From an uncultured delta proteobacterium (GTDB lineage: Bacteria; Desulfobacterota; Desulfovibrionia; Desulfovibrionales; Desulfovibrionaceae): 64,000 nucleotides of DNA. Of this stretch, positions 14,889 to 19,769 are shown piece by piece. The notes below the pieces were generated by a model. It had not been told where the DNA came from. It saw only the letters and a program-made list of their open reading frames with translations, and searched no databases. Both the position numbers and the translations under genes were made by a program. Position 1 is the first letter of the stretch; every line of letters begins with the position of its first letter. The stretch lies in the NCBI GenBank assembly GCA_900079685.1, contig LT599019.1, forward strand, positions 357,864 through 421,863, read 5' to 3'.

Positions 14889-15473
14889 TCAGCCCACGCC
14901 GCCCGCATCCAGCAGCAAGGCGAGTTCGCGCAGGGTTTCCCGCGCCGCCGCCTCGCGGACCTCGGCCCTGGACCCCTTGAAATGATGCGGGATAGCCGCG
15001 ATAACGATGGAAAGGTCCTCCGCCTCCAGCCGGATGGCGTCCGGGAAAACCCGGCGCAGATTTGCGAGATCGACCGCGCAGGCGCCCTTCTTCTCCCGGA
15101 CGGCCACGGCCGACCACACGCACCCCACGGGCTTCAGCTCCGTGCCACCGCCGGGCCCCGCAACGCCCGAAACCGCGACAACGGCCTCGGCGCCCATAAC
15201 GTGAAGCGCCCCCAGGGCCATATGCCGCACAACCTCGCCGCTGACGGCCCCGTGTGCCGCAATGACCGCCCCGGGCACGCCGAGCACATTTTTCTTTATT
15301 TCGTTGGAATAGGCCACAATGCCGCCGGTGAACCAGTCGGAACTGCCCGCCACGTCCGTGCAGAGCGCGGCGATCATGCCGCCGGTGCAGGATTCCGCCG
15401 TTGCCATCCGGTACCCGGCCCGGGTAAGCAAACCGGACAATCTGCCGATAAGATCCTCATGAGAATGTTTCAT
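14889..15473 (-). CDS. pncC: Nicotinamide-nucleotide amidase (PncC/CinA C-terminal)
   Basis: A 194-residue protein of the CinA C-terminal family, which hydrolyses nicotinamide mononucleotide to nicotinate mononucleotide and ammonia for NAD salvage. Seen motifs are TAESCTGGMIAAL near the N-terminus, WFTGGIVAYSNEIKKNVLGV, and VSGVAGPGGGTELKPVG. It is a little longer than the usual 160-170 residues because of a C-terminal helical extension. The ATG at 15473 has AGGAG at suitable distance. The longer open frame upstream (to 15971) is antisense to the next gene and rejected. It has no N-terminal CinA domain. Confidence 0.9.
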   Translation of the reverse strand: MKHSHEDLIGRLSGLLTRAGYRMATAESCTGGMIAALCTDVAGSSDWFTGGIVAYSNEIKKNVLGVPGAVIAAHGAVSGEVVRHMALGALHVMGAEAVVAVSGVAGPGGGTELKPVGCVWSAVAVREKKGACAVDLANLRRVFPDAIRLEAEDLSIVIAAIPHHFKGSRAEVREAAARETLRELALLLDAGGVG

Positions 15474-15588
15474 ATTCCGGCGTCTCCTGTACGCACCGCG
15501 CCGGCCGCCCGCGCCCCTGAAAAGGGACCGGTGGCAAGGGCGGCCGGATTGTGATAGGTTTTCTCCAGCCTGTTCCAAGGAGTACTGC

Positions 15589-16761
15589 ATGATCCGCAAG
15601 GTCTTCCTTTTCGCGGTCTTTGTTTTTTCCGGCATTGCCGCGGCCCATCTTCCCGCTGTCTTTGGTGACGAGGCCTTTGCCGCGTCCAGGCCCGTCCGGG
15701 TGATATACGGCTTTGACCGGGAGTTCGCCCCGTTTTCCTTTGAGGACCCGGGCGGCAAACCCGTGGGGTTCGAGGTGGAGATCGTCGAGGCCATTTTCAG
15801 CGGCTCCGCGAGCCTTGTGTCGCGCCCCCTGCAATGGGACATCATCCCGGTCGAACTCGGCCAGGGCGTGGTCACCATAACATCGGGCATGGTGAAAACG
15901 GAAGAGCGGACCAAATCTTTTCTCTTTTCCGATATGCCCACCCTCTCATTGCAGGTCAGGCTGTTTACCAAAAACTACAACCGCTACCCCAACGCCACGT
16001 TTTTGCGCGGCCAGCGCGTTGCCGTCGAGCAGGGGTCATACCAGCACCGGCTGCTGCAAAACTTCGGCGGCATCAACATCAAACCGTTCAAGGACAAGGT
16101 CACGCCGCTCAAAGCCCTGTTCAACGACGAGGTGGAAGCCTACTGCGGCCCGGTGCAGAGCGCTTATTATTATATGGGCAAGCTCGGGTACTCCGGCATG
16201 TCGACGCTGGGAACGCCGCTCGGCATCACGGAGCTGCGCATCGCCGTCAACCGCGACCGGGGCGATATCCTGCGCATGGTCAACGACGGCATGAAAATGC
16301 TGGTGGAAAGCGGGGAGTACGACCGCATTTACCGCAAATGGTTCGTGCAGGACCTCAACGCCGACGAAAGCCTGAAGCTGTTGAACGCGGCCAAGGAGGC
16401 GACGCTTCCCGCCTACACCCCCTATAGCCGCCAGACGCGCGGCGCCGCCGTGCTCACCGCCACCGGGCAGATTTACAAGGGCAGCGCCGTGGAAAACAGC
16501 GACAAGGCGCTGTCCGTCACGGCCGTGACCGCCGCTCTCGCCAACGCCATAGGGTCGGCGGACATAGAAATCAAGGCCGTCATCTGCGTTGACGCCGACG
16601 GCAGGCCCGTGCCCGTTTCTCCGGAGGAACGCCAGCGGCTGCTTGAATTCGGCCGGGGCATTCTTGTTCTGAACTTTGACGAAGCGGGCCTGCTCACCGG
16701 CACGATGGCGGGCGCGGGCCTGCCGCCCGCGGGCGCGCCCGGCCCGCGCGCGGCCCTGTAA
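15589..16761 (+). CDS. Exported solute-binding protein fused to a dead cytidine-deaminase fold
   Basis: A 390-residue protein. A signal peptide (about 1-32) leads into a family-3 extracellular solute-binding domain (about 36-255: YGFDREFAPFSFEDPGG, GFEVEIVEAIF, TEERTKSFLFSDMP). From residue 275 the sequence follows cytidine deaminase: AYTPYS, GAAVLTATGQIYKG, VEN, SVTAVTAALANAI, PVSPEERQRLLEFG. Every catalytic position is changed: the zinc Cys and Glu of the CAE motif are T311 and V313, and the PCxxC cysteines are E346 and Q349. It is therefore probably a non-catalytic ligand-binding module outside the cytoplasm. No ABC permease is adjacent, so it may be a sensor or scavenging protein. It is three bases upstream of miaA. 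Confidence 0.88.
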   Translation: MIRKVFLFAVFVFSGIAAAHLPAVFGDEAFAASRPVRVIYGFDREFAPFSFEDPGGKPVGFEVEIVEAIFSGSASLVSRPLQWDIIPVELGQGVVTITSGMVKTEERTKSFLFSDMPTLSLQVRLFTKNYNRYPNATFLRGQRVAVEQGSYQHRLLQNFGGINIKPFKDKVTPLKALFNDEVEAYCGPVQSAYYYMGKLGYSGMSTLGTPLGITELRIAVNRDRGDILRMVNDGMKMLVESGEYDRIYRKWFVQDLNADESLKLLNAAKEATLPAYTPYSRQTRGAAVLTATGQIYKGSAVENSDKALSVTAVTAALANAIGSADIEIKAVICVDADGRPVPVSPEERQRLLEFGRGILVLNFDEAGLLTGTMAGAGLPPAGAPGPRAAL

Positions 16762-16764
16762 CGC

Positions 16765-17712
16765 ATGAGCGCCGCGCACGAGCACCCCATCCCGGTCATC
16801 GTGATCGCAGGTCCCACGGGCACGGGCAAAAGCGCCCTGGCCCTGGCTGTTGCGCGCGCGCTGGACGGCATCATCATCAATGCCGATTCCCGCCAGGTGT
16901 ATGCCGATTTTCCCATTATCACGGCCCAGCCCTCCGTGCGGGAATTTGTCCAGGTCACCCACAAACTCTACGGTTTTCTCCCCATCAGGAAAAAACTGAG
17001 CGCGGGGGCTTACGCCCTCTTGGCAAGGGGAGAAATCGCCGCCGCGCATAAGAGCGGGCGCATGCCCATCCTTGTCGGCGGCACGGGGCTGTATCTGCAA
17101 TCGCTCCTTTCCGGCATCGCGCCCATTCCCCCGGTGCCCCCCGCCATTTCGCAACGCTGGCAGGAGGAATGCGAAAAACAGGGGCCCAAGGCCCTGCACG
17201 CCCTGTTGCTGCAACGCGATCCGGAATCCGCCGCGCGGCTGCACCCCAACGACAGCCAGCGCATCACCCGCGCGCTGGAAGTGCTGGAAGGCACCGGGCA
17301 CCCGCTCGGTTACTGGCATTCGCTGCCCCTGCCGCCGTCCCTCTACCGCCCGCTTTCCTTTTGCATGGATCTTTCGCTGGAGGCCATAACGCCCCGCCTG
17401 GCGGGCCGCATCACCGCCATGCTGGAGGCGGGCGCCATCGAGGAAGCCCGGAAAGCCCACGGACGCTGCCCCGACCCAGTGGCTCCCGGCTGGTCCGGCA
17501 TCGGCTGCGCGGAGTTGTTCAAATACATCACCGGGCAGACGGACCTGGAAACCTGCAAGGCCGTCTGGCTGCAAAATACCCGCGCCTACGCCAAACGCCA
17601 GATAACCTGGTTCAAGCGGCACGCGGAAATGATCCGCTGCACCCCGGACGATGCCGAGCGCGTGCTGGAAATGGCGGCGGAGACCTTCGGGAAACGCGCC
17701 AAATCCGCCTGA
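16765..17712 (+). CDS. miaA: tRNA dimethylallyltransferase
   Basis: A 315-residue enzyme that adds a dimethylallyl group to A37 of tRNAs reading UNN codons. The P-loop is GPTGTGKS (16-23). The family signature INADSRQVY follows, then PILVGGTGLYLQSLL and the C-terminal region KRQITWFKRH. Length and motif order match MiaA. It starts three bases after the solute-binding/deaminase-like gene and is followed by a strong terminator, so these two genes form a transcription unit. Confidence 0.96.
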   Translation: MSAAHEHPIPVIVIAGPTGTGKSALALAVARALDGIIINADSRQVYADFPIITAQPSVREFVQVTHKLYGFLPIRKKLSAGAYALLARGEIAAAHKSGRMPILVGGTGLYLQSLLSGIAPIPPVPPAISQRWQEECEKQGPKALHALLLQRDPESAARLHPNDSQRITRALEVLEGTGHPLGYWHSLPLPPSLYRPLSFCMDLSLEAITPRLAGRITAMLEAGAIEEARKAHGRCPDPVAPGWSGIGCAELFKYITGQTDLETCKAVWLQNTRAYAKRQITWFKRHAEMIRCTPDDAERVLEMAAETFGKRAKSA

Positions 17713-17730
17713 TCCCCCTCGCGTGAACAC

Positions 17731-17773
17731 AACGGCCCGCAAGCATGAAGTAACCGGGCGCGGGCCGTTTTTT
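17731..17773 (+). terminator. Rho-independent terminator after miaA
   Basis: Ten-base arms AACGGCCCGC (17731-17740) and GCGGGCCGTT (17760-17769), followed by a run of six T ending at 17773. Confidence 0.85.
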
Positions 17774-17891
17774 GCCGGGGCTGCGTGCCGCCCGGGAAAC
17801 ATCCGCTTGTCAGTTACAGGCATTTCTGTATACCTTTTTGCCGTATTCCCCGAAGAAGTGGCTTTATCATTCTCCGGCAAGGATAATTACC

Positions 17892-18722: not shown

Positions 18723-19769
18723 CTACACCCGGCCTTCCCGCAACAGAAGAGCGGCATAGGCGGCACTGCCCCACAGACCGAGGTCGTGGTTGCGCACGTG
18801 CATGACCGGGATGGCCCCGAGGCTCCTGCCCATGGGGTTTTTCTCCCTGAGTTCCGCCGCGAAGGACGGATGGCCGAGAACGCCCGGCAGATTGGCCGCC
18901 AGGCCGCCGGTAATAAAAATCCCTCCTAGCGGCAGGGTGTTAAGGACGTAATGCGCAACGGCCCGGCCATACAGCCTGGCGATAACCTCCATGACTTCCG
19001 GGTTCGCGGCGGCCAGCGGGGCTACCTCGTGCGCGGGAATCTTCTCCCCGGTGCAATAGGCGTACAGGTTGGAAAGTCCGTTGCCCGCAACGGCCATATC
19101 CCCGCTTATCCGGTCCGTGCCGTGGAGTTCCGCCAGATACCGGTAGAGGTCTTCCTCCTCCCTGGTGAAGGGGAACAGGGTATGCCCGGCCTCCGCCCCC
19201 GCCACGACGGGCACGGGTCCCGGCAGGATGCAGCAGTGCCCCAGCCCGGTGCCCGCGCCGATCACCGCGCGGGGAAAGCCCGGCCTGTCTTCGCCCGCCA
19301 GCACGGTCACGGCGTCGATGCGGTGCGGCAACAGGGCGCAGGCAAAGCCGTTGGCGACGAAATCGTTGATAAATCGCACCGGTGCGCCTTCCAGCGCGTC
19401 CATCACGGGCCGCGCCTCCAGGGGCCAGCGGATGTTGGGACAATAGCAGACCTCTCCCTCCGGCGGCGCGATGGAGGCGTCCGCCACGGCCGCCGGGCCG
19501 GGAATGCCGAGAACCGCGGCATCCACATGCACGGGTTCGGACGACGCGGGCAGGAAGAAGCCGCCATCGTCCCCGGCGGACGCGGCCAGGGTGCGCATCA
19601 TGTGGCCGGTGTCCGTGCTGGCGGCGGTGGAAAAGCGCACCCGACGCACGAGACGGAGCGTGGCCAGAGGATCAGGAGAGCGCGGGTCGAGCCGGAACAG
19701 CGCGAACCGGCTGTGGGTGCCGCCGATGTCGGCGGCCAGGATGGTTTTCATGGAGGGAGCGTCGGTCAT
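18723..19769 (-). CDS. glk: Glucokinase (Glk family)
   Basis: A 348-residue sugar kinase that phosphorylates glucose with ATP to feed glycolysis. Motifs: phosphate loop ADIGGTHSRFALF, INDFVANGFA (sugar-binding Asn-Asp), GAGTGLGHC and the C-terminal GGIFITGGLAANL. Length agrees with bacterial Glk. The start at 19769 has AAGGA upstream; ATG at 19751 is possible. It converges with the TSUP gene. Confidence 0.9.
   Translation of the reverse strand: MTDAPSMKTILAADIGGTHSRFALFRLDPRSPDPLATLRLVRRVRFSTAASTDTGHMMRTLAASAGDDGGFFLPASSEPVHVDAAVLGIPGPAAVADASIAPPEGEVCYCPNIRWPLEARPVMDALEGAPVRFINDFVANGFACALLPHRIDAVTVLAGEDRPGFPRAVIGAGTGLGHCCILPGPVPVVAGAEAGHTLFPFTREEEDLYRYLAELHGTDRISGDMAVAGNGLSNLYAYCTGEKIPAHEVAPLAAANPEVMEVIARLYGRAVAHYVLNTLPLGGIFITGGLAANLPGVLGHPSFAAELREKNPMGRSLGAIPVMHVRNHDLGLWGSAAYAALLLREGRV

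Follow-up and report, generated by a model that had tools for sequence, protein, structure and literature searches.

A secreted-type family-3 solute-binding protein fused to a catalytically dead cytidine deaminase domain in Desulfovibrionaceae

A cytidine deaminase-like domain on an export-type protein

What would a cytidine deaminase (CDA) fold do on a protein that appears to be built for export? The question is raised by a gene in the window, a stretch of 64,000 nucleotides from an uncultured delta proteobacterium of the Desulfovibrionaceae. The gene occupies positions 15589-16761 (+) as a single open frame of 390 codons plus a stop, and encodes a 390-amino-acid protein with the following features:

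15577..15582, + strand: RBS-like AAGGAG, 6 bases 5′ of the ATG, read directly
15589..15681, + strand: signal-peptide-like N-terminus, residues 1-31, from a hydropathy scan
15703..16347, + strand: family-3 solute-binding domain, residues 39-253, from Pfam PF00497 (6e-20) and structure comparison
16369..16725, + strand: catalytically dead CDA fold, residues ~261-379, from profiles, sequence matches and structure comparison
16492..16494, + strand: E302, equivalent by alignment of the CDA ribose-binding Glu
16519..16521, + strand: T311, first zinc Cys position by alignment, immediately preceding a helix in both models
16525..16527, + strand: V313, catalytic Glu position by alignment
16618..16620, + strand: S344, second zinc Cys position by alignment, immediately preceding a helix in both models
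16627..16629, + strand: E347, third zinc Cys position by alignment, third residue of the helix starting at 345

The frame is uninterrupted both in the window and in full-length relatives, ruling out a frame artefact. A scan of 15300-17800 found no sigma-70 promoter, although such a scan says little for this organism.

The first-pass annotation had described a signal peptide followed by a family-3 solute-binding domain. The former stands as a signal-peptide-like, export-type N-terminus recognized by hydropathy scan only, with a mean of 2.73 across the best 12 residues in the window protein. Of the 42 homologues with enough N-terminus, 41 have a comparable hydrophobic stretch ahead of the solute-binding domain, by a threshold of 1.8 that was set by ourselves without a control set. 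The latter is borne out by the SBP_bac_3 match at residues 39-253 (E 6e-20), together with a match of fold.

The C-terminal domain has the predicted fold of a cytidine deaminase

Profile searches placed the C-terminal region near the CDA family and outside its curated limits. Pfam PF08211 matched residues 261-335 at 5e-9, while PF00383 reached just 0.07. NCBIfam cytidine deaminase models matched within residues 261-361 (best 2e-14), all of them under their curated cut-offs, such that the protein falls short of both TIGR01354 (45.9 bits against 113.65) and NF004064 (53.5 against 74). The isolated C-terminal sequence found the solved CDA 2d30 as its best match at 1.6e-11, and a profile built from 18 relatives matched the same structure at 6e-29.

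AlphaFold2 models were computed for the mature protein (31 sequences; pLDDT 92.3, pTM 0.88) and for the CDA-like domain alone (18 sequences; pLDDT 91.9, pTM 0.83). Comparison of the whole protein returned only solute-binding-fold entries among its best 50 matches, because one domain filled all of them; the CDA domain was modelled and compared separately. Here the closest structure was the Mycobacterium marinum CDA 4f3w_D, with a Z of 20.2, an rmsd of 1.4 and 119 of 120 target residues aligned, and the top 28 matches (Z 20.2 to 16.5) were all small single-domain CDAs or blasticidin deaminases. The models therefore confirm a CDA fold across the full C-terminal domain. A C-terminus lacking this fold would have contradicted the first-pass annotation, and the structure comparison gave the opposite result; chance resemblance is ruled out by the 2d30 match, the profile match and the structural Z taken together.

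The domain most resembles the tetrameric-type CDA (Cdd; TIGR01354; 1jtk, 2d30, 4f3w), with which it shares the whole fold and the motif order PYS, GAA.L, VEN. It differs in showing EFGRG, a motif peculiar to it, at the place where most of the aligned CDAs read E[FL]AP, in having lost the zinc and catalytic residues in every fused homologue read, and in sitting C-terminal to an export-type solute-binding domain.

Zinc and catalytic residues are lost in every homologue read

Forty-four distinct fused sequences were compared after dropping duplicates (L001-L006 and L011-L013, plus L123, whose protein is identical to that of L056). Denominators vary between 42 and 44 because the solute-binding domain is cut short at its front in L062 and L014, as is the CDA domain at its end in L049.

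The first zinc ligand, Cys53, and the catalytic Glu55 were each kept in 0/44 of these homologues, and Cys86 and Cys89 were each kept in 0/43 readable ones. At the first zinc position the sequences have S (31), T (8), G (4) or Q (1), a Ser or Thr in 39/44. The catalytic Glu is replaced by L (28), I (5), M (4), V (3), T (2), P (1) or F (1), hence by an aliphatic residue or Phe in 41/44. The second zinc position holds S (16), T (10), A (10), G (4), D (2) or N (1), and the third D (26), E (15) or V (2), acidic in 41/43; the pattern [ST]xx[DE] occupies the PCxxC site in 26/43. As read from these alignments, the C-terminal domain is a catalytically dead CDA.

For the window protein, the first-pass annotation had reported all four metal or catalytic positions as lost, and non-CDA residues do stand at each of them. 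It correctly named T311 and V313; its E346 and Q349 need replacing, as the ungapped alignment gives S344 and E347.

In both AlphaFold2 models helices start at residues 312 and 345. The first and second lost cysteines lie immediately before these helices and the third lies three residues further, an arrangement in which the residues replacing the zinc cysteines look mostly like helix caps. Counting against capping, the second position is Ala, a poor helix cap, in 10/43.

Dead deaminase domains have precedents as structural partners, in the C-terminal domain of the E. coli-type CDA and in ADAT3. The former, which is structural in the dimeric enzyme, likewise has a CDA fold without zinc ligands, and its S-P-L in place of C-A-E is much like the S-A-L of the present protein; there, however, the dead domain is fused to an active-type CDA domain rather than to a solute-binding one. 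ADAT3 and other dead deaminase subunits also keep a dead deaminase fold for a non-catalytic job, but as intracellular partners of active deaminases, unlike this protein.

The fusion recurs across a family of bacteria

The fusion was found in 14 of 59 genomes, its own included, and in one of these it is split across two contigs. Scanning named genomes turned up 79 loci: 30 are fused (L036-L065), and the other 49 match mainly or solely over the solute-binding part. By title, 22 fused loci belong to Desulfovibrio, Halodesulfovibrio or Desulfovibrionaceae, including D. cuneatus DSM 11391 and H. spirochaetisodalis JC271; the remaining titles are five Deltaproteobacteria, one Proteobacteria, one Syntrophaceae and one Methanosarcinales bin. 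L064, the last of these, is a dead-CDA fusion whose contig, LUYE01000053.1, was assigned to a Methanosarcinales archaeon, a placement that would reflect either mis-binning or transfer.

When 288 genomes of the family were searched with a profile of the domain, 88 had a match. Forty-seven of these, from 16 genera, were fusion-like and 41 had what look like other CDA-like genes, a division resting on score and frame length with part of each group read, and with one of the 47 cut by a contig end. The two-domain order that the first-pass annotation had picked out in a single polypeptide is thereby found again in related genomes, and most of the 47 match the profile from end to end. A search of 297 genomes of the order showed the fusion in this family only; 12 other genomes of the order had a match, seven of which were read and five judged by frame length. 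A sample of 395 genomes of the phylum contributed one further fusion (G362), identified by frame length and a reading of the few long frames. Locus L134 is a fusion from outside the family. Searches of openly licensed literature found no description of this architecture.

The fusion and the other CDA-like genes were found in 47 and 41 genomes, respectively, and none had two matches. The indication that the two exclude each other is weak, because candidates were only partly scored in many genomes and because one genus (g5) accounts for 32 of the 41. With all candidates scored, each of the 14 fused genomes has one TIGR01354 match and 6 of 45 others have any. In the genome from which the window comes, the CDA profile finds no further match, and PF00383 marks three more genes of the deaminase superfamily.

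The dead domains group together

In an unrooted tree with eight genuine CDAs (43 rows, L049 omitted), the dead domains fell on one side of a branch supported at 100/99. With both halves of four dimeric CDAs added, the dead group (20 dead rows, again unrooted) was recovered at 93/99, under the tool's star threshold. Descent from the dead C-terminal domain of the dimeric CDA is not favoured, despite the similar S-P-L, as that domain falls outside the dead group (93/99). We infer that the family probably goes back to a single fusion event between a tetrameric-type CDA domain and a secreted family-3 solute-binding protein.

The solute-binding half has an altered pocket and looks like an orphan

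The model of the N-terminal half superposes on GlnPQ SBD1 (4la9_A) with a Z of 25.6 and an rmsd of 1.9 over 217 aligned residues, and its fold is held in common with family-3 solute-binding proteins of the GlnH, ArtJ and LAO type (Z ~25). R107, which we take to be the Arg holding the ligand carboxylate, is also shared with these proteins and is kept in 41/42 fused homologues. In contrast, the Asp that presumably holds the ammonium group of an amino acid is absent in 44/44, with Pro (27), Ala (10) or other residues (7) in its place; the same position in 55 control solute-binding proteins is Asp in 40, Asn in 8 and neither in 7. The fused proteins further differ in having R44, kept in 40/42 and Ala in both reference proteins. 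The pairing of carboxylate Arg with ammonium Asp that would mark an amino-acid pocket is thus missing here, as the Asp is from 15/55 of the controls. Loss of the Asp together with the presence of R44 makes an amino-acid ligand doubtful on sequence grounds; that the ligand is anionic is a guess.

Beyond the additional C-terminal domain, the fused protein is set apart from these family-3 relatives by having no permease close by. No cognate ABC permease gene was found near the gene, the nearest PF00528 match in the window's genome lying ~28 kb off; at 22 other loci, 128 flanking ORFs were scanned and 2 of them matched PF00528. As far as its neighbours tell, the binding protein looks like an orphan.

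Neighbouring genes

Three genes near the fusion were assigned in the window:

14889..15467, - strand: CinA (PncC) family gene, the divergent neighbour, Pfam PF02464 at 2e-45
16765..17712, + strand: miaA-like gene
18723..19769, - strand: glucokinase gene, Pfam PF02685 at 3e-47, here not directly downstream of the fusion

Neighbour families were checked against Pfam for representatives. Of the 160 ORFs found to flank 22 loci other than the window's, 128 were scanned for their families. At 27 of the 39 loci with at least 0.8 kb of upstream sequence, a divergently oriented homologue of cinA/pncC is present no more than 1.2 kb upstream. The miaA-like gene begins, as the first-pass annotation stated, three bases past the stop (ATG at 16765). 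Any meaning in this adjacency is not borne out: of 44 loci, just the window and L036 have miaA behind the fusion gene, and a general link to miaA is rejected.

Directly downstream, on the same strand and within ~150 bases, glk is found at 11 of the 43 fused loci with downstream sequence. These operon-like arrangements of glk behind the fusion gene occur in distant lineages (L115, L116, L117, L121, L061, L065, L039-L041, L045 and L050).

Possible roles of the dead domain

The reading that we favour, though it remains somewhat short of probable, is that of an exported pseudoenzyme fusion in which the dead CDA serves as a zinc-free module for structure or assembly on an orphan, altered receptor. 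A tetrameric-type CDA domain would have become fused, probably in a single event, with a secreted family-3 solute-binding protein, would then have lost zinc and catalysis, and would have been retained as a zinc-free structural module. In place of the zinc cysteines before the two helices there would be mostly helix-capping residues, and the aliphatic residue in place of the catalytic Glu would fill and plug the old active site. The most likely job of such a module would be assembly, by CDA-type self-association or by docking of a partner, holding in the periplasm a solute-binding receptor that looks like an orphan and whose pocket may no longer be that of an amino-acid binder. A broader proposal, unlikely as it stands, sees these proteins as a family of periplasmic receptors built on a CDA oligomer that has given up zinc and catalysis and now acts as a scaffold of many valences or as another sensor, displaying altered solute-binding domains that possibly bind an anionic, non-amino-acid ligand between R44 and R107. 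The family clearly illustrates how a nucleoside enzyme of the cell interior has become part of an export-type protein and persists there as a dead domain in many genera, and shows column by column how the fold of a zinc enzyme may be stabilised after loss of the metal.

The main rival, that the dead domain binds nucleosides or related molecules as a sensor or capture module, seems to us rather unlikely, and it turns on what is left of the old pocket. We take the CDA nucleoside site to consist of Phe24 (B. subtilis numbering), which stacks on the base, Asn42 and Glu44, which bind the ribose, and Tyr48. In the window protein Phe24 has become Gln, Asn42 Ala and Tyr48 Lys, with Val at the catalytic Glu, and E302, the equivalent of Glu44, is the sole one of the four pocket residues kept. 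Across the 44 fused homologues Phe24 is kept in one and Tyr48 in two, whereas Asn42 is kept in 26 and Glu44 (E302) in 42. Neither of the first two residues is invariant in the eight genuine CDAs of the alignment (Phe24 6/8, Tyr48 5/8, against 8/8 for both Asn42 and Glu44), which means that Tyr48 is no strict marker.

The pocket is better preserved in two outlying sequences: L134 keeps Phe24, Asn42, Glu44 and Tyr48, and L064 keeps Asn42, Glu44 and Tyr48 with Tyr at the Phe24 position. At the other extreme, even the Glu44 equivalent is gone from L116 and L117. Every sequence read has thus lost catalysis, and some lineages still retain parts of the pocket. The first-pass annotation had proposed nucleoside sensing or capture, an idea that fits poorly with a window protein retaining just E302 of the canonical pocket and better with L134 (4/4) and L064 (3/4). 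The retention of E302 and Asn42 would be explained by a pocket still in use as well, and to that extent argues against a purely structural role. Conversely, the aliphatic residue or Phe found at the catalytic Glu in nearly all homologues would narrow the site, and conservation is no higher in the site columns than elsewhere in the domain: ten old-active-site columns averaged 1.58 bits against 1.72, with 32% of random sets as low. An alternative set of 11 columns appeared a little more conserved, at 1.33 against 1.75 bits with 8% of random sets as low, but omitted the variable Phe24 column. Column conservation strongly favours neither the structural nor the nucleoside-binding reading.

It is also conceivable, if improbable, that the CDA part acts within one chain, stabilising its own solute-binding domain or tuning its opening and closing. 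The short linker between the domains and the confidence of the full model as a whole (pTM 0.88) would suit such an arrangement.

It is very improbable that the domain is merely decaying and serves no purpose today. Nine close pairs were chosen from 25 aligned sequences, and in eight of them the dN/dS of the dead domain was 0.07-0.29; the ninth was undefined, its dS being saturated, and the domain dS exceeded 1.5 in two further pairs. The dead domain is under purifying selection in the pairs tested. Decay is further contradicted by the AlphaFold confidence of ~92 and by the profile matching the length of the domain in most of the 47 genomes of 16 genera, and also in L134 outside the family. What speaks for it is confined to the end of the protein, where the stretch past residue 361 evolves faster in most pairs (dN/dS up to 0.52) and an LLP motif is altered in the window protein.

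Least probable of all is continued chemistry at a different metal site made of Ser/Thr and Asp/Glu, for although an acidic residue stands at the third zinc Cys in 41/43, the general-base Glu is absent in 44/44 and the first zinc ligand is now S, T, G or Q.

Other CDA-like proteins

Several further CDA-like proteins were met in these searches. L137:960-2132 (+), L141 and L142 (G051, G320 and G326), from other families of the same order, are E. coli-type dimeric CDAs with intact HAE and PCGYC motifs and an N-terminus that by eye is signal-peptide-like; judged by sequence they are apparently exported and possibly active. L118:682-2061 and L119:712-1959 (G096 and G156) combine an N-terminal part that is GrpB-like by eye with a CDA-like domain having intact CAE and PCGAC. 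In L135:956-2314 and L136:2064-3476 (G321 and G334), an N-terminal part that resembles a nucleoside phosphorylase by eye precedes a CDA domain with intact CAE and PCGRC.
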